Shown here: positions 27,620 through 43,265 of the stretch, one piece after another
Position numbering within the stretch: position 1 is the stretch's first letter
Layout of the letters: each line of letters starts with the position of its first letter
Assembly: GCA_018268465.1 (NCBI GenBank)
Contig: JAFDWN010000042.1
Location: 1-43,460, forward strand
Direction: 5' to 3'
Length of the DNA stretch: 43,460 bases
Source: Actinomycetota bacterium
GTDB lineage: Bacteria; Actinomycetota; Actinomycetes; Mycobacteriales; Mycobacteriaceae
Position numbers and translations under genes: made by a program
The notes under the pieces: model-generated
Database searches by the model: none
The model's input: the letters and a program-made list of their open reading frames with translations, nothing else
What the model was told of the DNA's origin: nothing

Positions 27620-27692
27620 GCCCCCGTAGCTCAGGGGATAGAGCGTCTGCCTCCGGAGCAGAAGGCCGCAGGTTCGAATCCTGCCGGGGGCA
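27620..27692 (+). tRNA. tRNA-Arg (anticodon CCG), attB host gene
   Basis: A complete cloverleaf: acceptor GCCCCCG/CGGGGGC with discriminator A, D-arm GCTCAGGGGATAGAGC, anticodon loop CTCCGGA giving CCG, and T-arm GCAGG TTCGAAT CCTGC. CC follows the discriminator base. A TAGTCT -10-like box lies at 27581-27586. The 3' 24 bases of the gene are repeated at 39599, marking it as the target of the integrated element. The left copy keeps the tRNA intact. Confidence 0.97.
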
Positions 27693-27694
27693 CC
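27669..27694 (+). other. attL core: 26-bp repeat in the tRNA-Arg 3' end
   Basis: Starts CAGGTTCGAATCCTG and ends GGGGGCACC. It spans the T-arm and the 3' acceptor strand of tRNA-Arg and is repeated exactly at 39599-39624. The flanking bases differ on both sides, which sets the core length. Tyrosine integrases commonly use this part of tRNA genes. Confidence 0.9.
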
Positions 27695-27730
27695 CTCTCT
27701 ACCAGGCAAAACACCCGAATGAGGGCGAGC

Positions 27731-27752
27731 CTACCCCCGATCTACCCTTTCG
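27731..27752 (+). repeat. CTACCC-N5-CTACCC motif, copy 1 (attL side)
   Basis: CTACCCCCGATCTACCCTTT contains two direct CTACCC half-sites 11 bp apart, one helical turn. Near-identical copies lie at 36630-36648 (inverted) and 39462-39480. This copy is 36 bp inside attL, where an integrase arm site or excisionase site would be expected. Confidence 0.7.
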
Positions 27753-27856
27753 CTGCCCGTTCGGGCTGGCCGATTCCGTTAGCTGACACCGGCCGAGCGG
27801 CGCGGCCACCGACCGCCCAGACGATCACCCGGCGCGCGGCGCTCTGGCTCCGAGAA

Positions 27857-28822
27857 TCAGGCCCGTCGAGCCAGTCGCTCAAGTGCTAGGACAGCTCGCT
27901 TCTCGCGATGAGCGTTATCGGAGAACGCAGACATGAAGTCGCGATGGTAACGCTCGTTGTCATAGCTGATTTGTCGTAAATGAGTGTTCAGCGTGCTAGA
28001 CGCATCGGTGATTGACCGATCAAGCTGTGCAATACCAGCTGAAATGCGACTCGCCATGTTGTAAATGGCATCGCCAAGATTCTTAAAGCCCGCGACGAGG
28101 ATATGGTTAGTCTTTCGCTGCTCGAATATCGAAGCGAATTGATAGTTTCGCTGAGCTTCCCGAACTAGAACGGACAGCCTTTGCGTAGCGTTGTCGGATG
28201 CTCGTGCGGCCATGACTGACGCCCTCGATACTGAGAACGGTGGCGGCGCACCGGCATAAACTTGCACTGCGGCCGAATAGGTTCTCTGACTCTGCTCGAT
28301 CGTTTCAAGCGCCTCGCTGAATCGCCCCAACGACACTGCGGCCTGCTCGATCTCCTCCCAAAACGGACTGAATGCGCCGTCGCGGAATTCGAACTCAGCC
28401 CTGGATATATGTGCGTCCGCGTTGGATAGCAGATCGGGCAGCGACTCAAGTGCTGTGAGCGCTGTGATTCCTGAATTGTGTATCTGACTGAGACTTGACT
28501 GCTGTGCGGCGTCGTACTGGCGACGCAGTCGTTCTGCCTCTAGCTGTTGCGCTGCGTATGCAGCCATACTTTCCCGTTGACGATCTTTCGCGTTATCCAT
28601 CGCACTTAAGACGAGAAATCCAATCGCGCCGAATAGTAGGCCTCCGACGATTGTATGAATGAACCCAATTCCAGCCTTGTTGCCCAACACGATAACACTA
28701 AAGAGTGCCGATACGATCCCGCCCGCAATGGCAACGTGGCCCGCGTAGTCTTTGTACCGATGAGTCCTTTTAGCCACTTCGCCCCCGAATCGCGTATGTC
28801 GATCTTCGAATCGCACCCGCAC
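27857..28822 (-). CDS. Membrane-anchored coiled-coil protein of unknown function (cargo)
   Basis: I do not recognise a family. From the GTG at 28822, preceded by GGGGAG 5 nt upstream, the product is 321 residues. A basic N-terminus is followed by two membrane helices (HVAIAGGIVSALFSVIVLG and FIHTIVGGLLFGAIGFLVLSAM) and then a long charged, mostly helical region with coiled-coil character (DNAKDRQRESMAAYAAQQLEAERLRRQYD). A longer frame starts at 28888. The DNA is visibly AT-richer than the neighbouring chromosome and codon use is unlike that of the housekeeping genes, which suggests recent acquisition. Its place just inside attL, apart from the replication and capsid operons, is typical of satellite cargo such as defence or exclusion genes. 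That role is inference. Confidence 0.7.
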   Translation of the reverse strand: MRVRFEDRHTRFGGEVAKRTHRYKDYAGHVAIAGGIVSALFSVIVLGNKAGIGFIHTIVGGLLFGAIGFLVLSAMDNAKDRQRESMAAYAAQQLEAERLRRQYDAAQQSSLSQIHNSGITALTALESLPDLLSNADAHISRAEFEFRDGAFSPFWEEIEQAAVSLGRFSEALETIEQSQRTYSAAVQVYAGAPPPFSVSRASVMAARASDNATQRLSVLVREAQRNYQFASIFEQRKTNHILVAGFKNLGDAIYNMASRISAGIAQLDRSITDASSTLNTHLRQISYDNERYHRDFMSAFSDNAHREKRAVLALERLARRA

Positions 28823-29067
28823 GTTTTCTCCCCGTGCCGTGCCGCTCAGCATGTTGTTTAGCACATGCGCTGTCACGAGGAGGACCAAGCGGCACTGGCG
28901 CTCGCAAACCGACGAAAGCTAGCCGGGTCGGCTGTAGTTCGGCGGTCGGTTTCCGGCTGGCGTGCGACCGTTGCGGCGCGGTCGGCGCGGTGCCTGCCAC
29001 GGATCGCACTGCGCGCCGTAGGGCACTTCGGACTGTCGGTAGCACGACGTGAAACCCGCCAGACCGG

Positions 29068-29307
29068 TCAATACGCCACCCGTCGACCGGCGCTCACGCC
29101 GACGTAGTAACGGCTTCGCCCGCGTTTGGGCTTGAGTTCGATTCCGGCGCGCACGCCGACATACTCGCCGCCAGGGCCGACGCGACCGGCGCTGACTTTG
29201 CGCGACACGATCTTGCTCGGAACCGCGCTTCTAGCGCGCGCCGTGCGCGTTCCCGCCTTGGCGAACCGACCTCGTTTGTCGCGCTTGATGTTTCGACGCT
29301 TCGCCAT
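29068..29307 (-). CDS. 79-residue basic protein, shared by both tandem elements
   Basis: Strongly basic N-terminus (MAKRRNIKRDKRGRFAKAG) with a compact Gly/Arg/Tyr-rich C-terminal half (GRVGPGGEYVGVRAG ... YYVGVSAGRR). No family recognised. It is the last gene of the leftward capsid operon. A copy at 43006-43245 in the second element is almost identical over the C-terminal 47 residues while the N-terminal half has diverged more. Basic proteins beside capsid genes can be DNA-binding, scaffold-like or capsid-internal, but nothing decides between these. It begins 2 nt after the stop of the 39-residue gene. Confidence 0.75.
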   Translation of the reverse strand: MAKRRNIKRDKRGRFAKAGTRTARARSAVPSKIVSRKVSAGRVGPGGEYVGVRAGIELKPKRGRSRYYVGVSAGRRVAY

Positions 29308-29309
29308 CG

Positions 29310-29429
29310 TCAGCGCTTACGCCGCTGGCGGCCTGTCGACTTGGCGCGTCGGCCAACCTTGGTATTGCCCTTGGATCGGGCTTGCTTGGCGAACTTGGCT
29401 CGCGCCGCCTTCTGACGTTTCGTCGCCAT
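29310..29429 (-). CDS. 39-residue Lys/Arg-rich peptide in the capsid operon
   Basis: A short frame from ATG 29429 to TGA 29310, giving a peptide that starts MATKRQKAARAKFAKQ and ends RQRRKR. About 16 of 39 residues are Lys or Arg, and there are no acidic residues. It is packed between the 69-residue gene and the 79-residue basic gene on the same strand, with a GGAATCC spacer and a weak ribosome site. A nucleic-acid-binding role is plausible; otherwise unknown. Confidence 0.55.
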   Translation of the reverse strand: MATKRQKAARAKFAKQARSKGNTKVGRRAKSTGRQRRKR

Positions 29430-29492
29430 CGTGGGATTCCTTGTTTCGTCGGTTGAGCGCGGCCATGTCAACGACCGCCCCGCCTTGGCGGG

Positions 29493-29702
29493 TTACTCGG
29501 GTTCGAAGACGTGCGGCCCGAAAATCGCCGGATCGCGCACGATGCCGTCACGGTGGCGACGGTCGACCAGCGGCGCGACATCGGCGCGGCTACGGGACGG
29601 TCCCGGCCCGAACTCGGATGCCCCCGCCCGGTCGGGTGAGCGCTTGGCGTCGGCCATCGCGTCGAGAACGTGTTGCGGCACGTTGGCCGATCCGGCGACC
29701 AT
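29493..29702 (-). CDS. 69-residue protein directly downstream of the capsid gene
   Basis: From the ATG at 29702, 4 nt past the capsid stop, the frame gives a 69-residue hydrophilic protein (MVAGSANVPQHVLDAMADAK ... GPHVFEPE). A longer upstream frame would run into the capsid gene and has no support. Close spacing suggests translational coupling with the capsid gene. No family is recognised. Small genes after a capsid gene often encode connector or decoration proteins, which is only a guess here. Confidence 0.55.
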   Translation of the reverse strand: MVAGSANVPQHVLDAMADAKRSPDRAGASEFGPGPSRSRADVAPLVDRRHRDGIVRDPAIFGPHVFEPE

Positions 29703-29706
29703 CGGC

Positions 29707-30906
29707 CTAGGTCGCAATCGTCGGCGCGGCGTAAACCGAGCCGGTGCCGATCTGGATCGCGACCGCTGCGCCGCGCTGGCGCACGCCGACACCGAACGAC
29801 CGGATGTAGGTCGAATCGGTGATCGGGTAGGCGGTCACGCCGGGAACGGCCAATAGACCCCGGTAGGACTCAATCGGATGTTCGCGCACACCGACGACGT
29901 TGGCGAGGGAGTTCGGCCCGCCGGAGGCGACGACGGCGATCCAGCCGAGCGGAATGAACGGCGTTTCGACCAACCACGCGGGACCGTAGGAACCGAGGCA
30001 TTCGACGCCGTTATACACGCCGTCGATGGCTTCGCCGATGATGTTTTCGGCTTGCAGGTACGCGGGGGCGCGCTTGGACGGGATGAACGAAAGCTTCGCA
30101 ATCGGCCCACCCGAACGCGACTCTTCGCCTTGACGGAACGTCTGGATGTACTCGGATTCGTTCGGGTTGGCGAGAATGAGCAACTGGCTCGACGCGTCGA
30201 GACCGTAACCTTTGGCGCGAATCGTCTTGATCGCGTCTTCCAGATCGCCGGAATCTACTTGGATCGCACCAGATTTCCAATAGTGCGTTGTCGTGGCGGG
30301 ATCGAACGAATTGCCCAAGTAGTCGGGCACTCCCATGCCGTCCGCGTTCCACAAGCCACGGCAGACGATGCCCTCATCGTTGGTGCGCTGCGTCGGGTCG
30401 AACAGCCGATTCAGAATCGTGCCGGTCACCAGACGATTGTCCGAATGCATGATCGTGTTGACGTGCGCGTACACCTGTTCGGCGGTCATCTTGCGAAGCG
30501 CCTGCCAGGTGAACGCCGACCGTAGGCCGAAATCGCCGAAATCGTAGCCGAGCATCAGAACGTTGGACGGCACGTTCGCGGCGTTGGGGATACCCCATTC
30601 AGTGAGGCGCTCCATCGGCGGCGACGAAACACCCTGCGGGACAGCTTCGCCGGGAAGCGTCGTTCGGAACGCCAGTAGGTCTGCGATGGATGAGCGGTGT
30701 TCGTTGTATGCGTTGAATCCCTCAACGACCGATTCCCAGATCTCGTTGAGATCCACACCGTCGATCGTGTGGGTCACCAGCGACGAGCCGAGCGCATCAC
30801 CGGTCGACGCGATGCCCATCTGTGACGGTGCCGTTCCGCCGAACAGCGGGTTGGCGAGCAGCGTCGCAAGCGTCGCTTCGGTGTCGCGTGTCAGGGTCGC
30901 GGTCAT
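29707..30906 (-). CDS. Major capsid protein-like (HK97-fold type)
   Basis: A 399-residue protein that I read as a phage major capsid protein. Features fitting the fold are an N-terminal arm, a helix-rich P-domain-like segment (DDAIKTIRAKGYGLDASSQLLILANPNE), an SYGPAWLVETPFIPLGWIAVVASGG stretch and the C-terminal SYIRSFGVGVRQRGAAVAIQIG, as seen at the end of many actinophage capsids. There is no linked prohead protease and no obvious N-terminal delta domain, so maturation may not need cleavage or may use a helper enzyme. GAGGAT precedes the ATG. It heads the leftward operon from the 30907-31143 region. I cannot exclude another virus-derived shell protein. Confidence 0.7.
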   Translation of the reverse strand: MTATLTRDTEATLATLLANPLFGGTAPSQMGIASTGDALGSSLVTHTIDGVDLNEIWESVVEGFNAYNEHRSSIADLLAFRTTLPGEAVPQGVSSPPMERLTEWGIPNAANVPSNVLMLGYDFGDFGLRSAFTWQALRKMTAEQVYAHVNTIMHSDNRLVTGTILNRLFDPTQRTNDEGIVCRGLWNADGMGVPDYLGNSFDPATTTHYWKSGAIQVDSGDLEDAIKTIRAKGYGLDASSQLLILANPNESEYIQTFRQGEESRSGGPIAKLSFIPSKRAPAYLQAENIIGEAIDGVYNGVECLGSYGPAWLVETPFIPLGWIAVVASGGPNSLANVVGVREHPIESYRGLLAVPGVTAYPITDSTYIRSFGVGVRQRGAAVAIQIGTGSVYAAPTIAT

Positions 30907-31143
30907 CGGAAATCCTCGGGTTCGTCGGGCGTGGCGGGTTGCGCCGTGCCAGCGATCCTACGCCGCATGTACTTGAAAGCGACTGTGCCGCAGCCGAACA
31001 CATGACACGTTGATGCCAATACGCGCACTTGGGCTAGGTGGTCCTGACGGTGCCTTGCGATATGATTCGTAGCGAAACGGACCCTTCCCCCGTGAGGCCA
31101 GCGGGGCCGCCCTAACCGGGCGGGCTTGATGAAAGGTGTTCCG
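30907..31143. promoter_or_regulatory. Divergent control region between capsid and replication operons
   Basis: A 237-nt gap between the leftward capsid gene and the rightward excisionase-like gene. A TATGAT box (31061-31066) is a plausible rightward -10. A hairpin CCGCCC/GGGCGG (31107-31123) lies in the predicted 5' leader, followed by GAAAGGTG (31131-31138). This is the natural switch point of the element. No repressor gene is obvious next to it. Confidence 0.5.
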
Positions 31144-31377
31144 TTGACCCCCGATCCCATGCCGCGCCCCGCGCGGTCCCGCACCGCTGGCGCACGCCCA
31201 GCCGCCCCGGCGCTGATCTCCACCGCCCAAGCCGCCGAACGTCTCGGCGTCTCGCCCAACACGCTGCGAAGCTATGTCGCAAGCGGCCTGATCTCCTGCC
31301 GTCGCGTTGGGCCGAAGCTACTCAAGTTCGACGCTGACGAAGTGGATCTGTTCGCACACCGGGTGAGCAACGCATGA
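31144..31377 (+). CDS. Excisionase-like helix-turn-helix protein
   Basis: A 77-residue protein with a MerR/excisionase-type winged helix: LISTAQAAERLGVSPNTLRSYVASGLISCRRVGPKLLKFDADEVDLF. Such proteins help integrases excise satellites and prophages and can act as regulators. The TTG at 31144 is preferred because GAAAGGTG ends 5 nt before it; an ATG at 31126 lies inside that ribosome site region. It is the first gene of the rightward operon and overlaps the next by 4 nt. It could equally be the element's transcription activator. Confidence 0.8.
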   Translation: MTPDPMPRPARSRTAGARPAAPALISTAQAAERLGVSPNTLRSYVASGLISCRRVGPKLLKFDADEVDLFAHRVSNA

Positions 31378-31595
31378 CGCCGCGTCAACGGCTCGCGGCG
31401 CTTCAGCGGGCACGCGTACAGCACAACATCGCCGCAATGCAGGTCGCTCACGCCCAACGTCGCGCCAACGAACTGTCCCGACTCGTATTCATCCACGGTG
31501 CCAAACGCGTCGCGAAAGCCCTTGCGGCGTATCCGGTTCTACTCGACCCCGACAATCTCACCGATCTCGACGGCCCGAAAGAAACTCACTCATGA
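31374..31595 (+). CDS. 73-residue hypothetical protein in the replication operon
   Basis: Starts with ATGA overlap on the excisionase-like stop and overlaps the next gene by 4 nt, so it is clearly part of the operon. The protein is rich in Arg, Ala and Gln and mostly helical (MTPRQRLAALQRARVQHNIAAMQ...). No family recognised. Confidence 0.7.
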   Translation: MTPRQRLAALQRARVQHNIAAMQVAHAQRRANELSRLVFIHGAKRVAKALAAYPVLLDPDNLTDLDGPKETHS

Positions 31596-32368
31596 CCGAC
31601 CACCAGCCCGACGACCACCAGCCCGACGACGTTGAGCGCGCGCAACAGCGGATCACCGAAGCAACGGCGCGGATCAACGGGCCGGGTGAGCGGTCTTGGA
31701 AGCGCGGCGATCAACGTCTAGTCGAACGATTCGGCCACGACTCACAATTGCTCACGTTGGCGCGGCGGATGTCCAGCGGTCAATCGTCACCCGGCGCTGA
31801 AGCTGACGCCGACCAGATCATCGCCGCCTACGATCACGCGCGCGCACTGGTCGAACCGATCTATCAGCGTTGGCCGCAGATACGCCAGATGGCCGAGATC
31901 TTCGCGTTCGAGTACGGCGGCCAAGACGGTCGCGACGACGGCGCGCTGTACCGCTTGGTTGACGCTGCGATCAACGCTTACCAGTCCGAGCCGTTCACCG
32001 ATCTACGAATCGACGGTCGCGAAGGGATCACATGGAACGCTCAACCCGGCGGCGTCGATCCCGATTCGGGTGTCGTCGTTCTGATCACATCGTCGCCGAA
32101 TCAGCGTTGGCCGATCCACGAGAATCAAACTCTTGAGCAGGTTCTAGAAAATGCGCGAAACCAACAATGGTGCGAATTGCATCTATGCGGCGCAGCGTGC
32201 ATTAACAAAATGTCGGAGAACAAGCGATCAGCTGAAATCTGCGGAATGCCGGAATTGCAGAAGAAACCGATTCCGGTTCCGCTGCCTTTCGGCAATCTGA
32301 TTATCGTGGTCGTGGTCTGCGCGGCGTGCATGGCCGAGTTCATCGGCGGCGATCCACAGCGGTCCTGA
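31592..32368 (+). CDS. Hypothetical 258-residue protein with a Cys-rich C-terminus
   Basis: No family recognised. The N-terminus has a repeated HQPDD HQPDD. The middle is helical and soluble. The C-terminal about 70 residues hold several cysteines (CELHLC, AACINK, EICG, CAAC), which could bind zinc, followed by a hydrophobic stretch (NLIIVVVVCAACMAEF) that might be a core strand or a membrane segment. The DNA of this C-terminal part is more AT-rich than the first part, hinting at a recombined module. The gene ends before a strong hairpin. Confidence 0.65.
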   Translation: MTDHQPDDHQPDDVERAQQRITEATARINGPGERSWKRGDQRLVERFGHDSQLLTLARRMSSGQSSPGAEADADQIIAAYDHARALVEPIYQRWPQIRQMAEIFAFEYGGQDGRDDGALYRLVDAAINAYQSEPFTDLRIDGREGITWNAQPGGVDPDSGVVVLITSSPNQRWPIHENQTLEQVLENARNQQWCELHLCGAACINKMSENKRSAEICGMPELQKKPIPVPLPFGNLIIVVVVCAACMAEFIGGDPQRS

Positions 32369-32403
32369 ATACCAATATTCGCTGTGCTGCAATGCTTTTG
32401 GTT

Positions 32404-32450
32404 AGCGAGCCCCCGAGCTCGACGGCGCGGAAGCGACTCGGGGGCTCGCT
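32404..32450 (+). terminator. 14-bp perfect stem hairpin
   Basis: AGCGAGCCCCCGAG (32404-32417) pairs perfectly with CTCGGGGGCTCGCT (32437-32450) across a 19-nt loop, in the 249-nt gap before the primase gene. No U-tract follows. It may terminate or attenuate the upstream transcript so that primase expression is set separately. Confidence 0.65.
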
Positions 32451-32617
32451 GGTCGGGCCATACTGCCGACCGCCTGACGAAGGCACCCCAACAATACCGC
32501 GCGCCGTGCCCCGATAAGTGCCGACACCCGGCGTAAATTCGTACCCAACTAAATGGCGGGCCGACCTCCACCAGGTCGACCCGCCGACAGTTCCCAAGCT
32601 CTTAGAAACTAGGCCAC

Positions 32618-35008
32618 ATGTTATCAGCGTTTACCGACGAATTCGACGGCCCAACGTCGGTGTCGGAATTCGAATCATTCGACGTTGCGCGCGTGCTGCA
32701 ACTGTTCGCCGACCGACCCATCTTCGGCGGCACCGCGCACGCCGACGACGACCCGCCACCGTGGGCCGACGCCACATGGGCGATCCCCGACGTGGCGGGA
32801 CTGTCCGCACACGATGCCGCGTTGGCCTACGCCAAGGCGGGCGTGTTCATCGTGCCCACCGACCCTACCGACGTGAAGAACCCCGGTTCGCTGCTCGGCA
32901 ACCGATGGCAAGACCGCTCAAGCATCGATGCCGACCGGATCGCCGGGTGGTGGACCGATCATCCGAACGCGGGCATCGCCGCCGACGTTGGTCGATCCGG
33001 TCTGATCGCTTTTGATCTCGACTGCGACGAACGGCCCGCCGAGATGACCGACGACGTTTGGTCAGCACTACAGACCGGCGCGATTCACGCCACACGCGCA
33101 ACCGGCGCGCGCGCTCATTACGTGTTCTCCTGCCAGCCAGACGAATTCGGCAACGGCGCTGGTGTATTCGGGCGTTGGGGCGAAGTGCGGTGCAGTAACG
33201 GCGTGATCATTCTCGCGCCCACGCAGCACCCCGACGCGAAGACCAAGCGCGGTCGCTACGGCTGGCGCAGAACCGGCGACGTGCCGCCACTCCCCGATGT
33301 GCTGCGCGCACTGTTGAGTGCGGCCGGCAATAACGACGATCCCAAAACGCCGGCCGAACTGCTCACGTTTCTTGCCGCACACACCGGTAACGACGCGCCG
33401 AGCGGCCTGCAAGGCCATCTGACCGCCTTCGCCAAAGCCATCGAACGCGGGCAGTCCCGCCATGACGAGATGACCAAGGTCATGGCGTGGGCGTTCCGCG
33501 AAGCGATCATCGGGCGGTTTCCGGCGCAATCGGCCTATGACGCACTCAAACTCGCGTTCTACCGCGCCAAGCCGGAAACCAAGGGAACCGGCGAATTCGA
33601 CCGGATCGCGCGTTGGGCCGCAGCCCAAGCCGAGACCGCCGATCCCGAAACGACTCGGCGACGGGTCAACCGCGCGAGCGACGACGAAACGTTCTGGTCG
33701 GCGCGCCCAGCCTTGGCCGATATGCGCCAGTTCGCCCGCGCTCGCCGTGTCGGTCCTTGGGCGATGCTCGGTCACGTCCTGGCGCGCACCGTTTCGGCGA
33801 TCCCGCCGCATGTGGTGTTGCCGCCGTTGGTCGGTTCGCACGCGAGCCTGAATTTGTTTGTCGCCCTGGTCGGTCGAAGCGGCGCCGGGAAGGGCGGTGC
33901 GGCAGGTGCGGCGGCGGATTGGCTGGGCACCGATCCCGAAGCGTTTCTGGCGACATTGGGTAGCGGCGAGGGCATGGCGAAGGTGTTCGCCTACAAACAC
34001 CGCGCGAACGGCAACAGCGGTCCCTGGACGCAAACCGGTTTGCGCGTTTCGGTGCTCTTCGACGCTCCCGAAGTCGACAATCTGGCCGCGTTGACGAGCC
34101 GCAACGCTTCGACGCTTTTGCCCCAATTGCGCAGCGCCTACAGCGGCGAAGAGCTCGGATTCTCGTATGCCGATCCGGCCAAGGCGGTCAAACTGTGCGC
34201 GCACCGCTACCGGCTGTGTCTGACGATTGGTGTGCAACCCGGTCGCGGGCGTGCGCTGCTCGATGACGCGGACGGCGGCACGCCGCAGCGATTCGTCTGG
34301 CTTCCCACCGACGACGCCAACGCGCCCGAACGCGCACCGTCTATGCCGCCGGGTTTCGACCTTCCGCGCTGGCCCGATCCACCGGCGAACGGGCGAATCG
34401 TCAGCGGCGCGGAACCGGTCGCGATGTTGGCGACGCCGGTGGAGCTGGGCGCGCTGCATCTGCTCGACGTGCCGGATGCGGCGCGAACCACAATCGACGC
34501 TCACCGGCTGGCGATGCTGCGCGGCGGGGTGGTCGATCCGCTCGACGGTCACCGGTTGTTGTGCCGACTGAAGATCGCCGCCGCGTTGATGGCGCTCGAC
34601 GGACGAACCGACGCGGTAACCGAAGACGATTGGGCCCTTTCGGAAACCGTTATGGCCGTTGCCGATTCGACGCGGAGAAGCGTGGTCGACGTTCTGGTGA
34701 CCAACGCCGAAGCCGAGAATCTGCGGCGCGGGCGAAGTGAAGGTGTGCGCGCCGATGCCGCCGAACAGATCAAGACGGATCGCGCAGTGTCGCGCGTAGC
34801 CGAGAACCTGTTGCGCAAGCTCAAGGCAAGCGGCGGCGAAATGGCGCGCGCTGATCTGCGCAAGATGTTCGCAAGTCGTGATCGCCCGTTCTTCGATGAC
34901 GCCGAAGCAGCGTTGTTCGATTCGGGTCGGATCGACAAGGCACCATCGGACAACACCGGGCCGGAAGGCTTCGTGCTGCGCTTGGCCGATCAGGACGCCA
35001 GCAAATGA
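32618..35008 (+). CDS. Bifunctional primase-polymerase / helicase replication protein
   Basis: A 796-residue replication initiator. The N-terminal half is a prim-pol (AEP) domain: AALAYAKAGVFIVP (about 67-80), the catalytic pair in FDLD (132-135), HYVF (167-170) and GEVRCSNGVIILAPTQHP (188-205). The C-terminal half is a P-loop ATPase with VALVGRSGAGKG (415-426), resembling DUF3987/D5-type helicases. Such fused enzymes drive autonomous replication of phages, plasmids and satellites after excision. The iteron-like array at 35032-35180 starts 24 nt after the stop and may be its origin. Confidence 0.85.
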   Translation: MLSAFTDEFDGPTSVSEFESFDVARVLQLFADRPIFGGTAHADDDPPPWADATWAIPDVAGLSAHDAALAYAKAGVFIVPTDPTDVKNPGSLLGNRWQDRSSIDADRIAGWWTDHPNAGIAADVGRSGLIAFDLDCDERPAEMTDDVWSALQTGAIHATRATGARAHYVFSCQPDEFGNGAGVFGRWGEVRCSNGVIILAPTQHPDAKTKRGRYGWRRTGDVPPLPDVLRALLSAAGNNDDPKTPAELLTFLAAHTGNDAPSGLQGHLTAFAKAIERGQSRHDEMTKVMAWAFREAIIGRFPAQSAYDALKLAFYRAKPETKGTGEFDRIARWAAAQAETADPETTRRRVNRASDDETFWSARPALADMRQFARARRVGPWAMLGHVLARTVSAIPPHVVLPPLVGSHASLNLFVALVGRSGAGKGGAAGAAADWLGTDPEAFLATLGSGEGMAKVFAYKHRANGNSGPWTQTGLRVSVLFDAPEVDNLAALTSRNASTLLPQLRSAYSGEELGFSYADPAKAVKLCAHRYRLCLTIGVQPGRGRALLDDADGGTPQRFVWLPTDDANAPERAPSMPPGFDLPRWPDPPANGRIVSGAEPVAMLATPVELGALHLLDVPDAARTTIDAHRLAMLRGGVVDPLDGHRLLCRLKIAAALMALDGRTDAVTEDDWALSETVMAVADSTRRSVVDVLVTNAEAENLRRGRSEGVRADAAEQIKTDRAVSRVAENLLRKLKASGGEMARADLRKMFASRDRPFFDDAEAALFDSGRIDKAPSDNTGPEGFVLRLADQDASK

Positions 35009-35247
35009 TTTCGAGCGCGCAGTCGACTGCCGTGGACAGGGTGGACACGGTGGACGTGGCCGCGCGAACCCGTGTGCGAGCCGAAACCGTTCTACCAGGA
35101 AAGATAGAAAATGATCAGTTTAGAAGGGGCCGAGAACGCGAGGGACCGCGCGCGGTGTCCACCCTGTCCACGGTGTCCACCCTGTTAGCGACGACGGGTC
35201 ATCCGGTCGGCAAATCGCAAACGGCGCTGCAAGGGGGTCGGTTCTGA
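35005..35247 (+). CDS. Doubtful 80-residue frame across the origin-like repeats
   Basis: An ATG overlaps the primase stop (ATGA) and the frame runs to a TGA that overlaps the next start (TGATG), which looks like a normal operon gene. However, the frame is built on the 9-bp repeats, which translate as VDRVDTVDV and VSTLSTVSTL, and there is no recognisable domain. It may be a coupling frame that carries ribosomes to the next gene, or simply an open frame through an origin. I lean to a non-functional product. Confidence 0.35.
   Translation: MISSAQSTAVDRVDTVDVAARTRVRAETVLPGKIENDQFRRGREREGPRAVSTLSTVSTLLATTGHPVGKSQTALQGGRF
35032..35180. other. Inverted iteron-like array, candidate replication origin
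   Basis: Three contiguous 9-bp repeats GTGGACANN lie at 35032-35058, and three more in the opposite orientation at 35154-35180 (GTGTCCACC type). The roughly 95 bp between them include an AT-rich patch (about 35090-35127, TTCTACCAGGAAAGATAGAA and on). Iterons around an AT-rich unwinding region right behind a primase-helicase gene is a classic origin layout. The two arms can also pair as a long stem. Confidence 0.65.
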
Positions 35248-35717
35248 TGACGGTCGAACCGACGACGGTCGAACCGGGAACGGTCGGAACGTCGAAACCG
35301 GTTAGGGCGGTTCCGCTTTCGCTGCAATGCGGTGCGCTGCGATGCACACGGGCCAAAGAGCCGGGTGGATTCTGTTGGGCGCATCGGCGCGGACTGCAAT
35401 TGACCGCTTCACTGAACGACGCGGTGTTTCGATTTCTGCGCGAAACCGAAATGACGACAGACGGCGCGAACGTCGAACGCGTGGATCGTGCGGGCGAGCT
35501 CTTCGGCGAAGCGCTGGCGCTGTTGGTGTCGACGCAATTCGGCGGGGAGATGACGTGGACGGCAGCGCCGTTGCAACTCGCGTCGGGACGATGGCGCGTT
35601 CGGTTCGGTTGGGCGGTCTTCGACGACGGCGAAATCGACCGAACCGACGACACCGATTCTGACGAGATCGAAGACGACGACGAAACCGAGATCGACGAAA
35701 GGCACGACGATGACTGA
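35247..35717 (+). CDS. Zinc-knuckle hypothetical protein (156 residues)
   Basis: A Cys/His cluster near the N-terminus (C28, C33, C43, H46: CGALRC ... FCWAH) suggests a small zinc site. The middle is a soluble domain with LNDAVFRFLRETEM and the C-terminus is very acidic (DDGEIDRTDDTDSDEIEDDDETEIDE). Its start overlaps the preceding frame by 1 nt and its end overlaps the next gene by 8 nt. The cluster is similar in spacing to that of the next protein. No family name is recognised. A DNA-binding or packaging-linked role is possible. Confidence 0.65.
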   Translation: MTVEPTTVEPGTVGTSKPVRAVPLSLQCGALRCTRAKEPGGFCWAHRRGLQLTASLNDAVFRFLRETEMTTDGANVERVDRAGELFGEALALLVSTQFGGEMTWTAAPLQLASGRWRVRFGWAVFDDGEIDRTDDTDSDEIEDDDETEIDERHDDD

Positions 35718-36624
35718 CACGGTGAACGGCGACCAGGCGGCACCGGACGGGATCGACCGCGACGACGAGCAGATCGACCCGTCGAAAGGCGAACGCATGG
35801 AAAGGCTGAGTGAGGCGTGGTGGGCGTCGCGTGCGCCGGAAGTGGCCGCACGACGCTGTAAGGCGCGGCGCTCCGATGGGTCGGGCGACCGTTGCAGCAA
35901 GGCCGCGATGAAAGGCCAACGCGTCTGCGGCACCCACGGCGGCAAGGCGCGCCGGTCGATGGAAGCGGCGAAACGCCGGATCGCCGAAAGCGCCGACCCG
36001 GCCGCAGCGCAGTTGGTCAAACTCGCGTTCGACAAGAAAGAATCAGCCGAAATCCGTTTGCGTGCAACGCTGCAACTGTTGGACCGCGCCGGATTGAACG
36101 CCAAGACCGCCGTCGAGATCACCCACGACGTGAAGCCTTTCGAGCAGATCATCGAAGGGATTTCGGATCAGTTGGAGATCACGTCGCGCGCCGACTACCG
36201 GCGTTCGGTTGGTGACGACGTGCCCGACGATGACGGCGAAACCGACCCGCTGGCGGGTCTTATCGCCGACGATGTGCGCCAATCTGAGGCGCACGCTCAA
36301 CGCGTCGACTTGATCGGGGAACGCATTCGGGCGAATCGCTTTGTCCACAACGACGACGTGATCGACGTTTCCGTGGTCGATGTCAGCGACGACGGCTATC
36401 CGGTGACACCCGGCGATCACGACCGTCAGCGAGACGACGACACAGACGGTCTGGTGCCGCTTCATCCCACCCGCCCTGGCGGGCCGATGGATCAGCCGAT
36501 GACCGTCGAGCAGGGCAACGAGCTGATGGCCGAGATACGCGAACGTGAAGCGCAACGCCGCCGCGAGCAGGGCCACGCGGTGATCCGGTCTGCCCAGCGG
36601 GCACTACCGCGTGGCCGGTCGTAG
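35710..36624 (+). CDS. HGG zinc-knuckle protein, possible small terminase-like factor
   Basis: A 304-residue protein with a Cys3His cluster (C50, C62, C73, H76) in RRCKARRSDGSGDRCSKAAM ... VCGTHGGKA, followed by a helical segment (EAAKRRIAESADPAAAQLVKLAFDKKESAEIRLRATLQLLDRAGL). Proteins with this HGG knuckle plus helices are common in actinophages and in some cases sit where a small terminase would be. Satellites that carry their own capsid often carry their own small terminase to redirect packaging, so this is my best candidate, but it is inference. The C-terminal part is acidic and less ordered. It is the last gene of the rightward operon. Confidence 0.6.
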   Translation: MTDTVNGDQAAPDGIDRDDEQIDPSKGERMERLSEAWWASRAPEVAARRCKARRSDGSGDRCSKAAMKGQRVCGTHGGKARRSMEAAKRRIAESADPAAAQLVKLAFDKKESAEIRLRATLQLLDRAGLNAKTAVEITHDVKPFEQIIEGISDQLEITSRADYRRSVGDDVPDDDGETDPLAGLIADDVRQSEAHAQRVDLIGERIRANRFVHNDDVIDVSVVDVSDDGYPVTPGDHDRQRDDDTDGLVPLHPTRPGGPMDQPMTVEQGNELMAEIREREAQRRREQGHAVIRSAQRALPRGRS

Positions 36625-36629
36625 GCGGC

Positions 36630-36648
36630 AAGGGTAGCTCGGGGGTAG
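36630..36648 (-). repeat. CTACCC-N5-CTACCC motif, copy 2 (inverted)
   Basis: On the minus strand CTACCCCCGAGCTACCCTT, differing from copy 1 in one base over 19. It lies 5 nt after the operon stop, upstream of the PLD-like gene, in a 158-nt gap that also contains the gene's promoter region. Confidence 0.7.
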
Positions 36649-36782
36649 ATTCCGCGCGGTTTCGTGTTGTCGCAGTTCAGCGCGCCGTACCCGCAGGTTG
36701 TATACCTGCGGGGCACTTCGCGACGACCGAGTTCGGCGAAATCGTTGGCGCTTGCAGAAGTCAAAGTGACACGATTGTCATT

Positions 36783-37886
36783 ATGAACATCCTCTCGGAT
36801 GAGCAATACCGGCTGCTCGCGTTCGTTTCGGCTTGCAACGGAAGCTCCTACAACCCGACTTCGGCGGAAGTGATGCTCTGGCGCAATAACCCAGAGCCGA
36901 AAAAAGCCGAGTACCGCACGGTCAAGGTCGATCCGCCGTTGGCTGGAATCGGTGGTATCGGTTTGAATACAGGGGCGTTCGCCGCCATCGCCGCCCTGAA
37001 CGAGCCCGGTTCAGCCTTCCAGCGGATGTTGGACACAACGCTCAGCAGCCAATTGCGCAGCCTCCAAGACAGTATCGCCGGGATGGCGGGCCGCTATCTG
37101 ACCGAACCGACTACGCGCCAAGAACTGGTGAAAGCGGCGGAAACCGTCATTGCCCACCTGACACGTCTGACGTGGCTTGAGGAGGTCACCGTTTCGGGCA
37201 AAACGGGCCTGCGGCTCACTCAGCTTGGTCGCGCGTTGCTTCGCAACCATGAAATGGACGATGTGACTCATCCCGATGTCAGCGTCGTGATTCTCGAAAG
37301 TAACGATCCGCTCGCGTATCCGCTGCTGGTAAGTCAGCTCGCCGAAGCTGGCGAAGGTCTACTGGTCGATCCGTACTTGAAAGTTGATGGTCTGCACCGG
37401 ATCGTCCAAAGTACGCGTCTCACAAGACTTCTGGTTACCGGCAAGCACAACGCCACCGAAATCGCAGCCATGCAAACGTATCTCGACAGCCTCAGTCTCC
37501 CCCGTCACGTTGAAATGCGCTCATCGACTGAACTTCACGATCGGATACTTCTGACCGACGACGAAACCGTTCTGACTCTCGGTACATCACTAAACAGCAT
37601 CGGACGCACGACCACGGTTCTGACACCGATGCCCCCGACTGCCGGTGACGTCTTGCGCGCGAAGTACGAGGAAATCTGGGACAACGCATCACTTGTCGGC
37701 CCCCAGCCCGACGAAGACGACGAAGATGACCAGGACGAAGACGACGAAACCGACGACGGCGACATTTCCGACGACGACGATGAGAACGACGTGACAGAAC
37801 CCGAAACCGACGACGCCGATGAACCCGCAGACACCGACGACGAGACAGACGAAGACGACACAGACGACGACGGCGGCCCGGAATAG
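36783..37886 (+). CDS. PLD-like protein with extreme acidic tail (cargo)
   Basis: A 367-residue protein. Residues about 108-155 look like a winged helix (ELVKAAETVIAHLTRLTWLEEVTVSGKTGLRLTQLGRALL). Residues about 168-300 resemble a phospholipase D-superfamily domain: LLVDPYL, a Rossmann-like strand, and a single HxR(x4)D motif (H252, R254, D259 in LHDRILLTD) followed by GTSLN. The usual Lys is Arg, which may weaken catalysis. Residues 310-367 are 39 of 58 Asp or Glu, a very acidic tail that could mimic DNA or block a partner. Single-HKD proteins include nucleases used in anti-phage defence. It stands alone between the replication operon and the integrase, a cargo position. Function is inference. 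Confidence 0.7.
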   Translation: MNILSDEQYRLLAFVSACNGSSYNPTSAEVMLWRNNPEPKKAEYRTVKVDPPLAGIGGIGLNTGAFAAIAALNEPGSAFQRMLDTTLSSQLRSLQDSIAGMAGRYLTEPTTRQELVKAAETVIAHLTRLTWLEEVTVSGKTGLRLTQLGRALLRNHEMDDVTHPDVSVVILESNDPLAYPLLVSQLAEAGEGLLVDPYLKVDGLHRIVQSTRLTRLLVTGKHNATEIAAMQTYLDSLSLPRHVEMRSSTELHDRILLTDDETVLTLGTSLNSIGRTTTVLTPMPPTAGDVLRAKYEEIWDNASLVGPQPDEDDEDDQDEDDETDDGDISDDDDENDVTEPETDDADEPADTDDETDEDDTDDDGGPE

Positions 37887-37896
37887 GCTTGCGGCT

Positions 37897-38115
37897 ATGA
37901 GCTACGAACTGCGACCCGTTGTCGGGATGAAGAACTTAAAGGGTGACGGTTATCCGACGTTCGACGAAATCGGGAATGTCACGCTTCCTGACACCGGCAA
38001 GACGATTCCGCCCACCGAATACCACTGGGTCAAGGTCACGTCCGAGGCCAGCCCCGACATGTCTAAAGCGGCGGCGAGTTCTCTGTTGATCTCGCCGCCC
38101 AGCGGACAGCAGTAG
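37897..38115 (+). CDS. 72-residue hypothetical protein
   Basis: Starts 10 nt after the PLD-like stop and ends 2 nt before the end of the convergent integrase gene. The sequence (MSYELRPVVGMKNLKGDGYPT ... HWVKVTSEASPDMSK) is compact, mixed beta-type and without recognised domain. Tight spacing suggests co-expression with the PLD-like gene, so it could be a partner or antidote. That is inference. Confidence 0.6.
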   Translation: MSYELRPVVGMKNLKGDGYPTFDEIGNVTLPDTGKTIPPTEYHWVKVTSEASPDMSKAAASSLLISPPSGQQ

Positions 38116-38117
38116 GT

Positions 38118-39332
38118 CTACGCCGTTTCGGTGTCGGCCGATTCCGCTGACGCCAACTCTGCGAGCGCATTGGCCGACAGCGACGCGGCCACCACGGCAT
38201 CGCGGCCGTCTTGGGCGTGCTGGTAGCGCAACGCCGCGCCGACCGTCTTGTGACCAAGGCGGGCCATGTTCTCGGCCAACGACGACACGGCGGCGTTCTT
38301 GGTTCCGGCGAAGTGCCGCAGATCGTGCGCCGAGAGATCTTCGCGGCCCACCGATTCGGCCGCTTTCTTGAACACGTCTTTGTTGAACACCCGGTCGTTG
38401 AGATGGCATCCGCCCATTGCGGGCGTGAACAACAGCGCCTCAGCGCTGCCACCGACGAACTGCGCCAGGTGCGCTTTCACGTCGTCGCGAATGTGCGGCG
38501 GAATCGTCACGGCGCGTTGTTCACTGTTCTTGGTTCCGACCTTCACGCGGCAGCGGTCGGCATCGGGGTTATCGGGGTCGTTGCGATGGGTCACGCTGCG
38601 CCGGATCGCCACCGATGAGCATTCGGCGTTGATGTCTTTGCGCCGCAGTTCCGACACTTCGCCGAAACGCATTCCGCACCAACCGGCGATCAGCACCATT
38701 GCTTTGAAACGGGCGGTTCGTTCCTCGGTGCCGAGCTTGTCGGCAATGGCGTGCAGCTCGACCGTCGTCGGTGCCTTCTGTTCTTTCTTGGTCGGCGGAT
38801 TCATCGCGCCGACGATCTGACACGGGTTGCGCTCCAACAGCCCATCGCGCACTGCGGTATTGCAGATCATGGAGAGAATGCCGTAGGCGTGGCTGTTGCG
38901 ACGTGGCTTGTCGGCATCCAAAGCCGAGAACCACGCGCGCACCGCTGCGGGCGTGAGATCGCGAACGGCCAAGGTGCCCAGCTTCGGCTCGATCAGATTC
39001 GACCATTTCGCGTTGTACTCGATGCGGGTGCTATCGGCGAGCTTGCGTTGATCAATGACCGTCTTGCCGTACACCGACAAGCGCAGCACTTCGGCTTTCT
39101 TCTCGGTCGCGCGATCCTTGGGCGGTTTCCACGTTTCGCCGCTGACCGCGCAGCGCTCTTTGTAATCGCGTTCGCGCGCCAACCACGCTTCGGCGTTCAT
39201 CTTGGTTCCGAAGACCACCGGCGCGTAGTGACGGCACAAGTCGGGACCGATGAACGACGCCTGATAGCTCGGTTGTTTAGTCGGCTGTTTCTTGATCTTC
39301 CCCCACGACCGGTGACCGGCTTTCCCGCTCAT
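38118..39332 (-). CDS. Tyrosine integrase
   Basis: A phage-type tyrosine recombinase that would insert and excise the element at tRNA-Arg. It has an N-terminal arm-binding segment (SWGKIKKQPTKQPSYQASFIGPDL), a core-binding helical domain (TRIEYNAKWSNLIEPKLG...) and the catalytic domain. With numbering from an upstream ATG at 39368, the catalytic residues are Arg234 (CGMRFGE), His348 and Arg351 (HDLRH), His373 (GHKTV) and Tyr382 (LRYQHA). I prefer the ATG at 39332 (404 residues), which begins directly before the arm domain as in related integrases. The gene lies 267 nt inside attR with its 5' end facing it. Confidence 0.93.
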   Translation of the reverse strand: MSGKAGHRSWGKIKKQPTKQPSYQASFIGPDLCRHYAPVVFGTKMNAEAWLARERDYKERCAVSGETWKPPKDRATEKKAEVLRLSVYGKTVIDQRKLADSTRIEYNAKWSNLIEPKLGTLAVRDLTPAAVRAWFSALDADKPRRNSHAYGILSMICNTAVRDGLLERNPCQIVGAMNPPTKKEQKAPTTVELHAIADKLGTEERTARFKAMVLIAGWCGMRFGEVSELRRKDINAECSSVAIRRSVTHRNDPDNPDADRCRVKVGTKNSEQRAVTIPPHIRDDVKAHLAQFVGGSAEALLFTPAMGGCHLNDRVFNKDVFKKAAESVGREDLSAHDLRHFAGTKNAAVSSLAENMARLGHKTVGAALRYQHAQDGRDAVVAASLSANALAELASAESADTETA

Positions 39333-39461
39333 CGTGCGAATTCCAGAATCGCCGAAACCGCTATGCAAGCGCGGTTTTCGTTTCGAGCAAAGTCTATATC
39401 TGACATGTTCGGCGCTGCTTTCCTGCGGGTGTCACCTCTTGAACAGCGGTTTTGCTGATCG

Positions 39462-39480
39462 CTACCCCCAGCTTACCCTT
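39462..39480 (+). repeat. CTACCC-type motif, copy 3 (attR side)
   Basis: CTACCCCCAGCTTACCCTT has the same two half-sites as copies 1 and 2, the second degenerate by one base. It lies between the integrase start and attR. Two TTGAACAG repeats (39438-39445 and 39491-39498) flank it, which may be further binding sites. Confidence 0.65.
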
Positions 39481-39598
39481 TCGAACCCATTTGAACAGTG
39501 TTGACATGTGCGTAGTGTGCGACCCGTTGCGGGGTTTAATCAGCAGCTAGACAACGGTTTTCGCTGGTCGCGCTATATGTTTGCTGAAGCCCTACCGT

Positions 39599-39624
39599 CA
39601 GGTTCGAATCCTGCCGGGGGCACC
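39599..39624 (+). other. attR core: second copy of the 26-bp tRNA-Arg repeat
   Basis: Identical to 27669-27694. Only the 3' part of the tRNA is present, with no acceptor 5' strand or anticodon arm upstream, as expected for the distal att site. The bases after it resemble those after attL in places (a CGTTAGCTGAC match near 27777 and 39733), which suggests it is also the left end of a second element. Confidence 0.88.
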
Positions 39625-39754: not shown

Positions 39755-40570
39755 TTAGGCCGCGGTTTCCCTGATCTGGCGCGGTTGGGTGCTGTCCGAC
39801 CGTTCCCATCGATAGCACGCTTCGTCTTCGAACTCGACCACGATTTGCAACCGGTAGTCCGCGCTGGACGCTTTGAACGCCATTACTGATTGCTGATTTG
39901 GCGTGAGTGTCTTCGTCCACTCCGTCGCCAGTTCTCCGACCATCGCTTCGCTGAGACGTTCACTGAAGTCAGCGCCGAGCTTTTGAGTGACGTAACGGTC
40001 CATCTGCTGCGAGGTCATGTTTCCGAGGTTCGGTCCGACCCGCTGCACACCGGGCATACCGCCGCCGCCCATCATTCCGATCATTTGGTTGAGCGCTTGC
40101 ATGGGATCGCTTTGCATCGCACCCGACACCGCGCCGCGCAGCCCCTCGGTGATGATGCGTTCGATACCCTGGCCGATCTCCACTTCGTTGTTGGCCTGAC
40201 GGCAACCATCTGGCACTTCGTTGCCCTCAGCGTCGAGCGCAACGACGCGAACGCCGAGCAGGTTGACCGCGCCATTGCTCAAGTTGTTGATCCGCGCCAT
40301 CCATAGGTTCTCGCCGAACATGTCGGCGCGGTTGATCGACGGAACGATCTTGCGCGCTTGGGCGGCAATGCGGTCATCTTCGGCGCGCTGCATCACGGCC
40401 ATCTGGTCGTTGTAGCGCTTGCGGTCTTCGGTCGCTTGCGTCTCGCGGTCGTCACGTTCCCGTCGAGCTTTGCGCGGTTCGCACCACACCGCGACGTAGA
40501 GCGCGATGAGTACGCCGACCGTTGTCGAAACCGACGTAGTGATCTGTAGCCAAGCCGGAATCAGATTCAC
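39755..40570 (-). CDS. Single-pass membrane protein of unknown function (cargo)
   Basis: A 271-residue protein with one N-terminal membrane helix (about 9-29, ITTSVSTTVGVLIALYVAVW), a charged helical stretch (EPRKARRERDDRETQATEDRKRYNDQ), a beta-type domain (LWMARINNLSNGAVNLLGVRVVAL), a Met/Gly-rich linker (MIGMMGGGGMPG) and a C-terminal YRLQIVVEFEDEACYRWERSD. Proteins with one membrane helix and this C-terminal VEFxD...W pattern occur in actinobacteria, but I know no function. GGGAG precedes the GTG start. Its slot just inside the att site equals that of the membrane gene in the first element. Confidence 0.65.
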   Translation of the reverse strand: MNLIPAWLQITTSVSTTVGVLIALYVAVWCEPRKARRERDDRETQATEDRKRYNDQMAVMQRAEDDRIAAQARKIVPSINRADMFGENLWMARINNLSNGAVNLLGVRVVALDAEGNEVPDGCRQANNEVEIGQGIERIITEGLRGAVSGAMQSDPMQALNQMIGMMGGGGMPGVQRVGPNLGNMTSQQMDRYVTQKLGADFSERLSEAMVGELATEWTKTLTPNQQSVMAFKASSADYRLQIVVEFEDEACYRWERSDSTQPRQIRETAA

Positions 40571-40717
40571 GGTTCACTCCCTAGATTCGGTCGAACCTTC
40601 CGGCTCAAACGGTAGGGACGCAGTACGACACTTTCGGCCATCCGTGAACGCCTTGGCGGGGTGGGGGTGCTAACGGAGCTCGCGTCAGCCTGGCGATGCG
40701 GTCAGTCGGAGTTGTCG

Positions 40718-42205: not shown

Positions 42206-42822
42206 CGCTCAATCTCCTTCGCATTATTGATGATGTGTTCTTCGATTACTCCGTGGTGCTTCTGCGATAGAGTCAGATGATCGACCTGCTTTTCCGAAAG
42301 AATCAGCATCCAAATCCGTTCCGAAACTAACGCAGCAGTATCCGGATCATATGCATCGGCCGGAGTCTGGTCTGACGTGAAGTTGACGTCTATTAGATCC
42401 TTGTGCAGAACGGCTGTCTTAACTTTGTCGACGGTCGCGATTTCCTCCCACAAAGTGCCGCCGTGCGGAGCAAACGCTATCCAGAAGAAATGGTCAGCCA
42501 TGAAGTGTTTCGTGGCGACGGCTCTATAACAATGCGCGAGGAAAGCTCGGAAATGTTTTGGCAGATCTGATGACTTGTCATAATTCTTGCACTCAGCGAG
42601 GAAGTTCTCACCCTCGTAGTCGCCTTCGCGGAACTGCCCGCCAAGGTCAAACGAGAAGACGTCTTGCACGTCGTTGTAAACGGCCTTCTCAAGAGTGAGT
42701 TTAGTTTTTGCGACCCGATCGGGGTTCACCCAATCGGCGCGAACCCTAGTAGTGCGGTCCAGCCACCTCTTCGCGAGAAGCGCCCCTACACGACCCTTCT
42801 TCTGCTCCGTCTCACCCGCCAC
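42202..42822 (-). CDS. Putative PD-(D/E)XK-type nuclease of a two-gene cargo unit
   Basis: The GTG at 42822 is preferred because GGGGGAG lies 5 nt before it (206 residues); a longer frame begins at 42846. A candidate active site is FSFDLGG followed 14-16 residues later by FLAECKNYD: the Asp of FDLGG and the E-C-K triad fit the PD-(D/E)XK nuclease pattern with usual spacing. The rest has FFWIAFAPHG and IWMLILSEKQVDHL, plausible core strands. No close family is recognised and a restriction enzyme of unusual type is possible. It is the first gene of the pair with the 495-residue protein. Confidence 0.68.
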   Translation of the reverse strand: MAGETEQKKGRVGALLAKRWLDRTTRVRADWVNPDRVAKTKLTLEKAVYNDVQDVFSFDLGGQFREGDYEGENFLAECKNYDKSSDLPKHFRAFLAHCYRAVATKHFMADHFFWIAFAPHGGTLWEEIATVDKVKTAVLHKDLIDVNFTSDQTPADAYDPDTAALVSERIWMLILSEKQVDHLTLSQKHHGVIEEHIINNAKEIER

Positions 42823-43005
42823 ACAAGCTCCCCCACGTCTGCGCACTCATCCGCCGTAGGCTACGTCACCCCCAATCTCCACATGCGACGTTCCCGTCCG
42901 TGTCGCACCGGCACAAAACCGTCAAAACGATCCCGCACTGACAAACTATCGCTGGGCGACGACAAGTTCAGCCCGTGGCCGTGAACCGTCGATCTCACCG
43001 GTCAA

Positions 43006-43245
43006 TCAGTAGGACACGCGACGGCCAGCGCTCACGCCGACGTAGTAGCGCGATCGGCCGCGCTTGGGCTTGAGTTCGATCCCGGCGCGCACGCCGACAT
43101 ACTCCCCGCCAGGGCCGACCCGACCGGCGCTGACCTTGCGCGATACGACTTTGGTGGGCACGGCGCGTTTAACCCGCGAAGACCGCGAGCCGGTCGGCGC
43201 GAACCTCCCACGGCGGTCGCGCTTGTAGTTTCGTCGCTTCGCCAT
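43006..43245 (-). CDS. 79-residue basic protein, second copy
   Basis: Same length and plan as the gene at 29068-29307. From VSRKVSAGRVGPGGEYVGVR to the end the two proteins differ only at one or two residues, while the N-terminal basic part differs more (MAKRRNYKRDRRGRFAPTG). A longer open frame upstream is the integrase remnant, not part of this protein. Its survival next to a large deletion suggests either recent loss or an independent use. Confidence 0.75.
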   Translation of the reverse strand: MAKRRNYKRDRRGRFAPTGSRSSRVKRAVPTKVVSRKVSAGRVGPGGEYVGVRAGIELKPKRGRSRYYVGVSAGRRVSY

Positions 43246-43265
43246 CGGGTCACTTTTTCTTGAAG

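Follow-up and report, generated by a model that had tools for sequence, protein, structure and literature searches.

How does an integrated element that encodes its own capsid protein, and in which no tail, portal or packaging motor can be recognised, move from one cell to another? The question is raised by the 43,460-nucleotide contig JAFDWN010000042.1 of an Actinomycetota bacterium (Mycobacteriaceae; assembly GCA_018268465.1), hereafter the window, which is an entire contig (C36, ending at 43460) of a 6.88-Mb genome and carries an 11.9-kb element bounded by perfect 26-bp copies of the 3′ end of tRNA-Arg(CCG). From its genes, the element is in our view likely to be an integrated phage satellite, one that builds a small shell of its own and depends on a lytic Patience-like phage for portal, motor and tail. 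It has its own capsid gene and a packaging adaptor and lacks a recognisable tail, portal and motor, and so probably spreads by hijacking a lytic phage.

The 399-residue protein of the element, which a sequence-only reading had called major-capsid-like, is by its matches a Patience-like, HK97-type major capsid protein (MCP). In PHROGs its residues 20-397 match phrog_3990 ('major head protein'; 3.8e-87), and among solved structures it matches two phage capsids of the Patience/Adjutor group, 8giu (residues 18-397, 4.7e-69; chain 8giu_E is the matching capsid protein and 8giu_Z is gp_4) and 8saj (7.1e-61); a Pfam scan gave no match. An MCP profile, which contains phage rows, matches 8saj at 1.9e-160. 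A tblastn search with the MCP returned 153 phage records, every one below 60% identity, and identity to the Predator MCP is 38.5%.

Ten element proteins were scanned against Pfam, PHROGs and NCBIfam. These family scans and phage structural queries found no portal, large terminase, protease, scaffold, tail or lysis gene in the element, which bears out the absences of portal, large terminase, tail, protease and lysis genes named from sequence. The sole lysis-type match, of the protein at 27857-28888 to the holin family phrog_1299, is at chance level (E 0.041). No capsid size-redirection family turned up in the general scans, and no search was aimed at one; a short protein encoded next to the MCP is a candidate for such a part. 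The structural queries were 42 non-MCP proteins of Patience-like phages (24 from Predator, 18 from others), used in tblastn. None matched in 36 chromosomal stretches with an MCP, which represent 34 places (L003/L004, the M. barrassiae and M. kyogaense contigs, are L035/L036) and include four with MCP fragments only (L063-L066). Nor did any match in 35 further stretches from 12 genera, the window's own included; both sets together comprise 71 chromosomal MCP stretches in 69 places. As a control, among the 80 viral contigs that carry a related MCP, 77 match 3-32 of the 42 queries, some of these contigs being the query phages themselves; the remaining three match none, and their MCPs group with satellites in the tree. 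A very distant portal or terminase could escape queries drawn from Patience-like phages; the profile libraries gave none either. Phage profiles of the large terminase, minor capsid protein and post-MCP gene found nothing in the 36 satellite files, and that of the scaffold reached only 0.098, while the same four profiles recover 43, 90, 64 and 86 phage loci, respectively. Predator-type large terminase and portal were likewise not found in 26 host genomes (control, 6/6 phage records found), and a helper of that type is therefore not resident there. The element would have to borrow portal, large terminase, connector, tail and lysis functions, plus scaffold and protease if needed. Of the tail-borrowing satellite proposed earlier, the capsid-encoding, tail-less, satellite-type gene set stands; borrowing limited to the tail was too narrow.

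Two more genes link the element to Patience-like phages. The suspected small-terminase-like factor is upheld by a match to phrog_10899 (4.7e-5), the family of Predator gp3, an annotated small terminase (2.6e-204). Compared with small-terminase profiles of the related phages it gives 98.1% probability (8.9e-14) over 121 columns, which span the C..C..C..HGG motif, helices and the KP.E-to-SR.E.RR stretch, and a search with the phage profile detects this gene at 22 distinct places among the satellites (E ≤0.1; window, 2.3e-4). The second link is a short protein encoded next to the MCP, whose profile resembles that of phage gp1 (90%, 1.7e-6, 20 columns); the other 38 of 40 profile pairs stay at or below 0.72% probability. 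The short protein was aligned from 22 loci, including 21 of the 27 with a full-length MCP (diverged in L037 and L057-L059, ambiguous in L043 and L053), and adjoins the MCP in 25 of the 35 later stretches. Its profile has one match among 11,528 phage open reading frames (ORFs), Troll4 gp1 (2.5e-4), few stretches reaching the phage left end; the gp1 profile in turn finds four distinct satellite places only, always the short MCP-neighbour gene (0.006-0.04). Phage gp1 (phrog_5460; L173:1-309, L034:1-348, L172:1-351) lies at the left genome end and carries an SEF-GPG motif. Because the shared part is about 20 residues, common descent of the two proteins is likely, not sure. Patience virion proteins are listed without gp1 (PMC7150772; this and the other papers cited were available in part, and statements about them apply to those parts), which speaks against an abundant shell protein and better fits an assembly role. 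The gp1-like short protein most likely works together with the MCP in head assembly, and phage gp1 is possibly a head-assembly factor. Two earlier ideas were given up: that the short protein is satellite-only, which had rested on 2.7 kb upstream and 0.9 kb downstream of phage MCPs, was dropped once the motif was found in gp1, and a likeness by eye of the 39-aa and 79-aa basic proteins to phage gp9-gp13 yielded nothing in profile comparison.

The features of the element and its surroundings are as follows.

27620..27694, plus strand: tRNA-Arg(CCG), integration target (ARAGORN)
27669..27694: attachment (att) repeat, left copy, the last 26 bases of tRNA-Arg(CCG); perfect repeat
27857..28888, minus strand: 343-aa protein with hydrophobic N-terminal part, probably cargo (ORF; families at chance level only)
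29068..29307, minus strand: 79-aa basic protein (ORF; 80% identical DNA copy at 43006-43247)
29310..29429, minus strand: 39-aa basic protein (start from gene caller; relatives adjoin other satellite MCPs)
29493..29702, minus strand: 69-aa protein with SEF-GPG motif, directly after the MCP (motif related to gp1 of Patience-like phages)
29707..30906, minus strand: predicted MCP, 399 aa, Patience-like HK97 type (profile and structure-sequence matches)
31126..31377, plus strand: excisionase-type helix-turn-helix (HTH) protein (TIGR01764 and HTH_17 above cut-off)
31374..31595, plus strand: 73-aa ORF product
31592..32368, plus strand: 258-aa ORF product (relatives in 9 loci)
32618..35008, plus strand: primase-polymerase/helicase-type replication protein (PF09250 3.1e-19; phrog_28894 1.6e-75)
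35032..35180: weak iteron-like cluster, candidate origin (GTGGACA twice, its complement three times)
35247..35717, plus strand: 156-aa protein (relatives in two close elements; start at 35400 by a second gene caller)
35710..36624, plus strand: small-terminase-like protein with C..C..C..HGG motif (phrog_10899; profile comparison)
36783..37886, plus strand: 367-aa cargo protein, possible defence gene (weak PADLOC PDC-S05 match, 3.9e-6)
37897..38115, plus strand: small protein (ORF; start from gene caller)
38118..39368, minus strand: tyrosine integrase (Pfam Phage_integrase 6.7e-12; phrog_1 3.6e-44)
39599..39624: att repeat, right copy, perfect 26-bp repeat
39755..43443, minus strand: remains of a second satellite (271-aa, 495-aa and 214-aa proteins, the 79-aa copy, integrase fragment 43273-43443)

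Genes for the 343-aa protein, the small basic proteins, the 69-aa protein and the MCP run leftward, those from the HTH gene through the defence-like gene rightward, and the integrase leftward again. The att repeats agree with the bounds first drawn from sequence (27669..39624 in tRNA-Arg(CCG)), and the family matches above confirm the integrase, excisionase-like gene and primase-polymerase recognised at that stage; a DUF3987 match of the primase-polymerase falls slightly below the Pfam cut-off. By its sequence, the element sits in tRNA-Arg(CCG) through its own predicted tyrosine integrase. Like phage satellites in general it is integrated, has its own integrase and att sites, is small, and has an incomplete virion gene set. 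To its right, the DNA between 39624 and the end of the contig at 43460 contains what is left of another related element, whose 271-aa protein has relatives inside satellites L039 and L049; this suggests tandem insertions at tRNA-Arg(CCG). In another genome (G068), loci L082 and L058 have consecutive att intervals of 8,988 and 12,958 bp and form a tandem pair at tRNA-Arg(CCG).

The MCP is found well beyond this contig. A profile search across 401 genomes of the family detected it in 49, spread over 12 of the 31 genera. A single-sequence MCP search (33/198 relatives, fragments included; one genus of 40) and a PHROG genome search (4/396 genomes of the phylum) undercount it by comparison; on viral contigs, a single-sequence scan was empty and an alignment scan found related MCPs. 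As all satellites were found through similarity to satellite or phage MCPs, other satellite lineages would be missed. Clustering of script-called genes from 34 loci placed the MCP in 33, the integrase in 26, the small terminase in 25 and the primase in 20. A family of 219 aa, presumably akin to serine resolvases by its motif, occurs in 17 of the 34 and is absent from the window. The order recurs, with the short protein and MCP in one direction and regulators, primase, small terminase and integrase in the other; in locus L002 every gene runs in a single direction. Loci L174-L208, from 11 other genera and the window's genus, hold a related MCP without phage structural genes.

In a careful MCP tree, a single branch separates 27 satellite from 14 phage MCPs (support 100/99). 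Quick trees give the same division for 30 satellite and 91 phage MCPs (SH-aLRT 100) and for 65 chromosomal and 91 phage rows (one branch, SH-aLRT 99; several long branches flagged). With chromosomal and phage MCPs split by one branch, a single capture is possible, the tree being unrooted. In L190-L193, on a long branch, small terminase and MCP are adjacent. Within four close elements the ratio of amino-acid-changing to silent differences (pN/pS) of the MCP is 0.29-0.37 (6 pairs; silent sites near saturation), indicating purifying selection; the ratios are 0.40-0.62 for the short protein, 0.52-0.71 for the small terminase, 0.31-0.77 for the primase and 0.36-0.82 for the integrase. Integrase identity falls to 26-28% where that of the MCP is 66-76%, and modules therefore swap around a conserved capsid.

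Element length bears on the size of the shell. Within the window's genus, where at least eight tRNA types serve as integration sites, we found 23 att spans, of which 19 measure 11.8-14.0 kb with varied cargo. Eighteen of these have a mean of 12.79 kb (s.d., standard deviation, 0.63), among them L049, with a stop in its MCP, and L047, which uses a 96-bp repeat outside any tRNA; the nineteenth, L194, measures 12.87 kb. Lambda holds 48.5 kb in a shell of triangulation number 7 (T=7), and volume scaling of genome length against 64.5, 70.5 or 48.5 kb at T=7 gives T of 2.1-3.1, to which T=3 is the closest allowed number. Alternatively the shell may be an underfilled T=4, as that of P4 is. Patience and Adjutor, of 70.5 and 64.5 kb, have HK97-fold T=7 shells whose split hexamers are bridged by the small protein gp4, and by a theorem a shell with all hexamers split is impossible at T=3 (PMC10635136). 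A metal site of the Patience MCP has been proposed to help the chains that line the split (PMC10635136). Its putative residues (His198, His200, Glu223 or His, His224) are kept in 14/14 phages and 15/27 satellites; the window MCP has T, H, A and K at the four positions and does not keep the site. A gp4 profile had no match in the 36 satellite stretches, a weak test with a five-row profile that recovers only 4 phage loci; among the phages themselves, gp4 occurs in just some clusters. The metal-site loss in some satellites and the failure of this weak test to find gp4 would fit, we infer, a shell without split hexamers. Tentatively, and with doubt, we suggest that one old capture of a lytic Patience-like head gene gave rise to the satellite lineage, which then spread into at least 12 genera of the family. 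The lineage would have retained just the MCP, the small terminase and a gp1-like partner, with the MCP remodelled for a smaller shell of about T=3 without gp4-bridged split hexamers. The T=3 theorem would explain both the missing gp4 and the metal site lost in 12 of the 27 satellite MCPs.

The same lengths allow a different account, in which several element copies fill a full-size T=7 head. At 12.8 kb each, five copies add up to about 64 kb, a sum that suits the genomes of Adjutor and Patience at 64.5-70.5 kb (PMC10635136), and there are satellites that package several copies and leave the capsid size unchanged (PMC11389934). Such packaging leaves both the element's own MCP and the near-constant monomer length unexplained, and we regard it as unlikely.

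Cargo varies among elements and is partly defence-like: besides the weak PDC-S05 match at 36783-37886 of the window, it includes an AbiEii-type AAA_21 protein and a DNA cytosine methylase (examples beyond the window: L042:2340-3917, L051:17354-18556). Other carried genes look like cargo too, partly of a defence-like kind. Further scans against PHROGs took in 88 proteins of at least 100 aa from a list of 207 element proteins and left out the core families, small-terminase and small proteins, and all of L002; the matches listed comprise 25/26 families, 25/40 and 17/17 (the last for 35/43 proteins), and a few weak matches may be missed. Defence-like cargo invites the explanation that the MCP is mainly a decoy, which co-assembles with the MCP of an incoming phage and blocks or shrinks its heads, the element moving in helper shells or not at all; the element indeed lacks the scaffold and minor capsid genes found just upstream of the MCP in annotated phages. 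An MCP that is full-length and strongly conserved argues against a decoy, as do a small terminase and primase that point to packaging of the element's own DNA, and the near-constant length of most spans in the genus, so that interference is improbable as the main role. That the element is a decayed Patience-like prophage, most of its genes deleted and now inert, is very unlikely: broken copies do occur in the group and fragments lie in the window's right flank, but no prophage with this MCP was found among the 71 stretches, one partial gene set recurs in conserved order at many tRNA sites where random decay would leave differing leftovers, and the satellite MCPs form one lineage apart from phages, with the MCP under purifying selection.

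Several points weigh against a satellite of Patience-like phages with a small shell of its own. The group is imperfectly stable, with MCP fragments in four stretches and stop codons in others, and the small-terminase profile matches just 23 of the 35 later stretches, some possibly cut. Four spans in the genus are outliers (L041, 15.64 kb, repeat 84% identical; L061, 9.69 kb, MCP stops; L195, 5.98 kb; L054, 5.32 kb), and four outside it, where tRNA sites only were sought, measure 8.5, 10.2, 10.2 and 13.7 kb; an initial claim of one fixed size was toned down in view of the 5.98-kb and 8.5-13.7-kb spans. Structure prediction with few aligned sequences gave confidence scores (pLDDT, predicted local distance difference test) of 32.8 for the MCP and 55.1 for the small terminase, too low for use, so that capsid identity rests on sequence. 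The link to gp1 is a 20-column motif, and the helper is named by homology between MCPs that are 38% identical. The satellite cycle is deduced here from the genes.

Replication of the element was considered from repeats. Of 15 elements, 7 have their strongest repeat cluster in the stretch between primase and small terminase, against 1.05 expected; a further three elements gave no score. Iteron-like arrays of differing sequence stand there in L036, L037, L039, L042, L046, L047 and L055 and are probable origins. The window is not among the seven; the candidate origin proposed for it earlier corresponds to a weak repeat cluster at 35032-35180, which failed to win the repeat test.

SaPI, P4 and PLE are integrated, primase-bearing, small and helper-dependent satellites (PMC10690885). 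The present element is likewise integrated, primase-bearing and small, and probably helper-dependent, but they remodel the shell of the helper, whereas it carries a full MCP of its own. The capsid-forming phage-inducible chromosomal islands (PICIs), or cfPICIs, resemble it in having their own capsid, small terminase and integrase, capsid clades apart from phages, and, as proposed for the element, a helper tail (PMC10690885, PMC11389934). Their gene set comprises MCP, protease, portal and connectors together with both subunits of the terminase (PMC10690885, PMC11389934); in the element an MCP and a small-terminase-like gene were found, and no portal, head protease, connectors or large terminase. 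The Streptomyces satellites MulchRoom and MiniFlayer also carry a capsid gene and exploit lytic phages of actinomycetes, as the element probably does, but they encode portal, scaffold and adapter as well as both subunits of the terminase, and no primase (PMC10690885), the reverse of the element. The Patience-like phages (Patience, Adjutor, Predator, Troll4) share with it one MCP family, a related small terminase and the gp1 motif; they differ in being lytic (stated for Patience; PMC7150772), in genome size (64.5-70.5 kb for Adjutor and Patience) and in a full structural gene set. The M. tuberculosis elements phiRv1 and phiRv2 encode a prohead protease and a different capsid type. Both have been classed as PICI-like, and candidate PICIs of Mycobacterium have been defined as regions with integrase and capsid, 62% of them found by SatelliteFinder (PMC10654092, mSystems 2023). 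The present element falls within that definition. In the available part of that paper the capsids are called highly diverse and a Patience-like lineage is not singled out, nor are small-terminase and gp1-like links, a missing motor and portal, or a span of about 12-14 kb described (PMC10654092). We saw no account of this lineage or its Patience-like link in the literature searched, which was mostly open-access and did not extend to the mSystems supplement.

Our proposal is that infection by a phage with a related head type, probably lytic, would induce excision, and that the element would be replicated by its own primase. Its MCP would assemble a shell smaller than the helper's, and its small terminase would deliver element DNA to the helper large terminase. 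The helper would provide portal, connector, tail and lysis, with scaffold and protease if needed. The resulting particle would inject, and the element would re-integrate at a tRNA.

A probable helper group, the lytic Patience-like phages, can now be named for a large set of actinobacterial satellites, and tests of helper function are therefore direct. A head role is suggested for phage gp1, whose gene stands at the left end of Patience-like genomes. With the phage shell solved at T=7 and the satellite shell smaller if it assembles, the two would show one HK97-type shell at naturally differing sizes, a comparison that bears on what determines the size of a capsid. A shell obliged to accept the portal and motor of another genome is a test of how far head parts can be exchanged; if the capture of a head gene for a smaller shell is true, the helper has to fit its own portal, motor and tail onto a shell from another genome.

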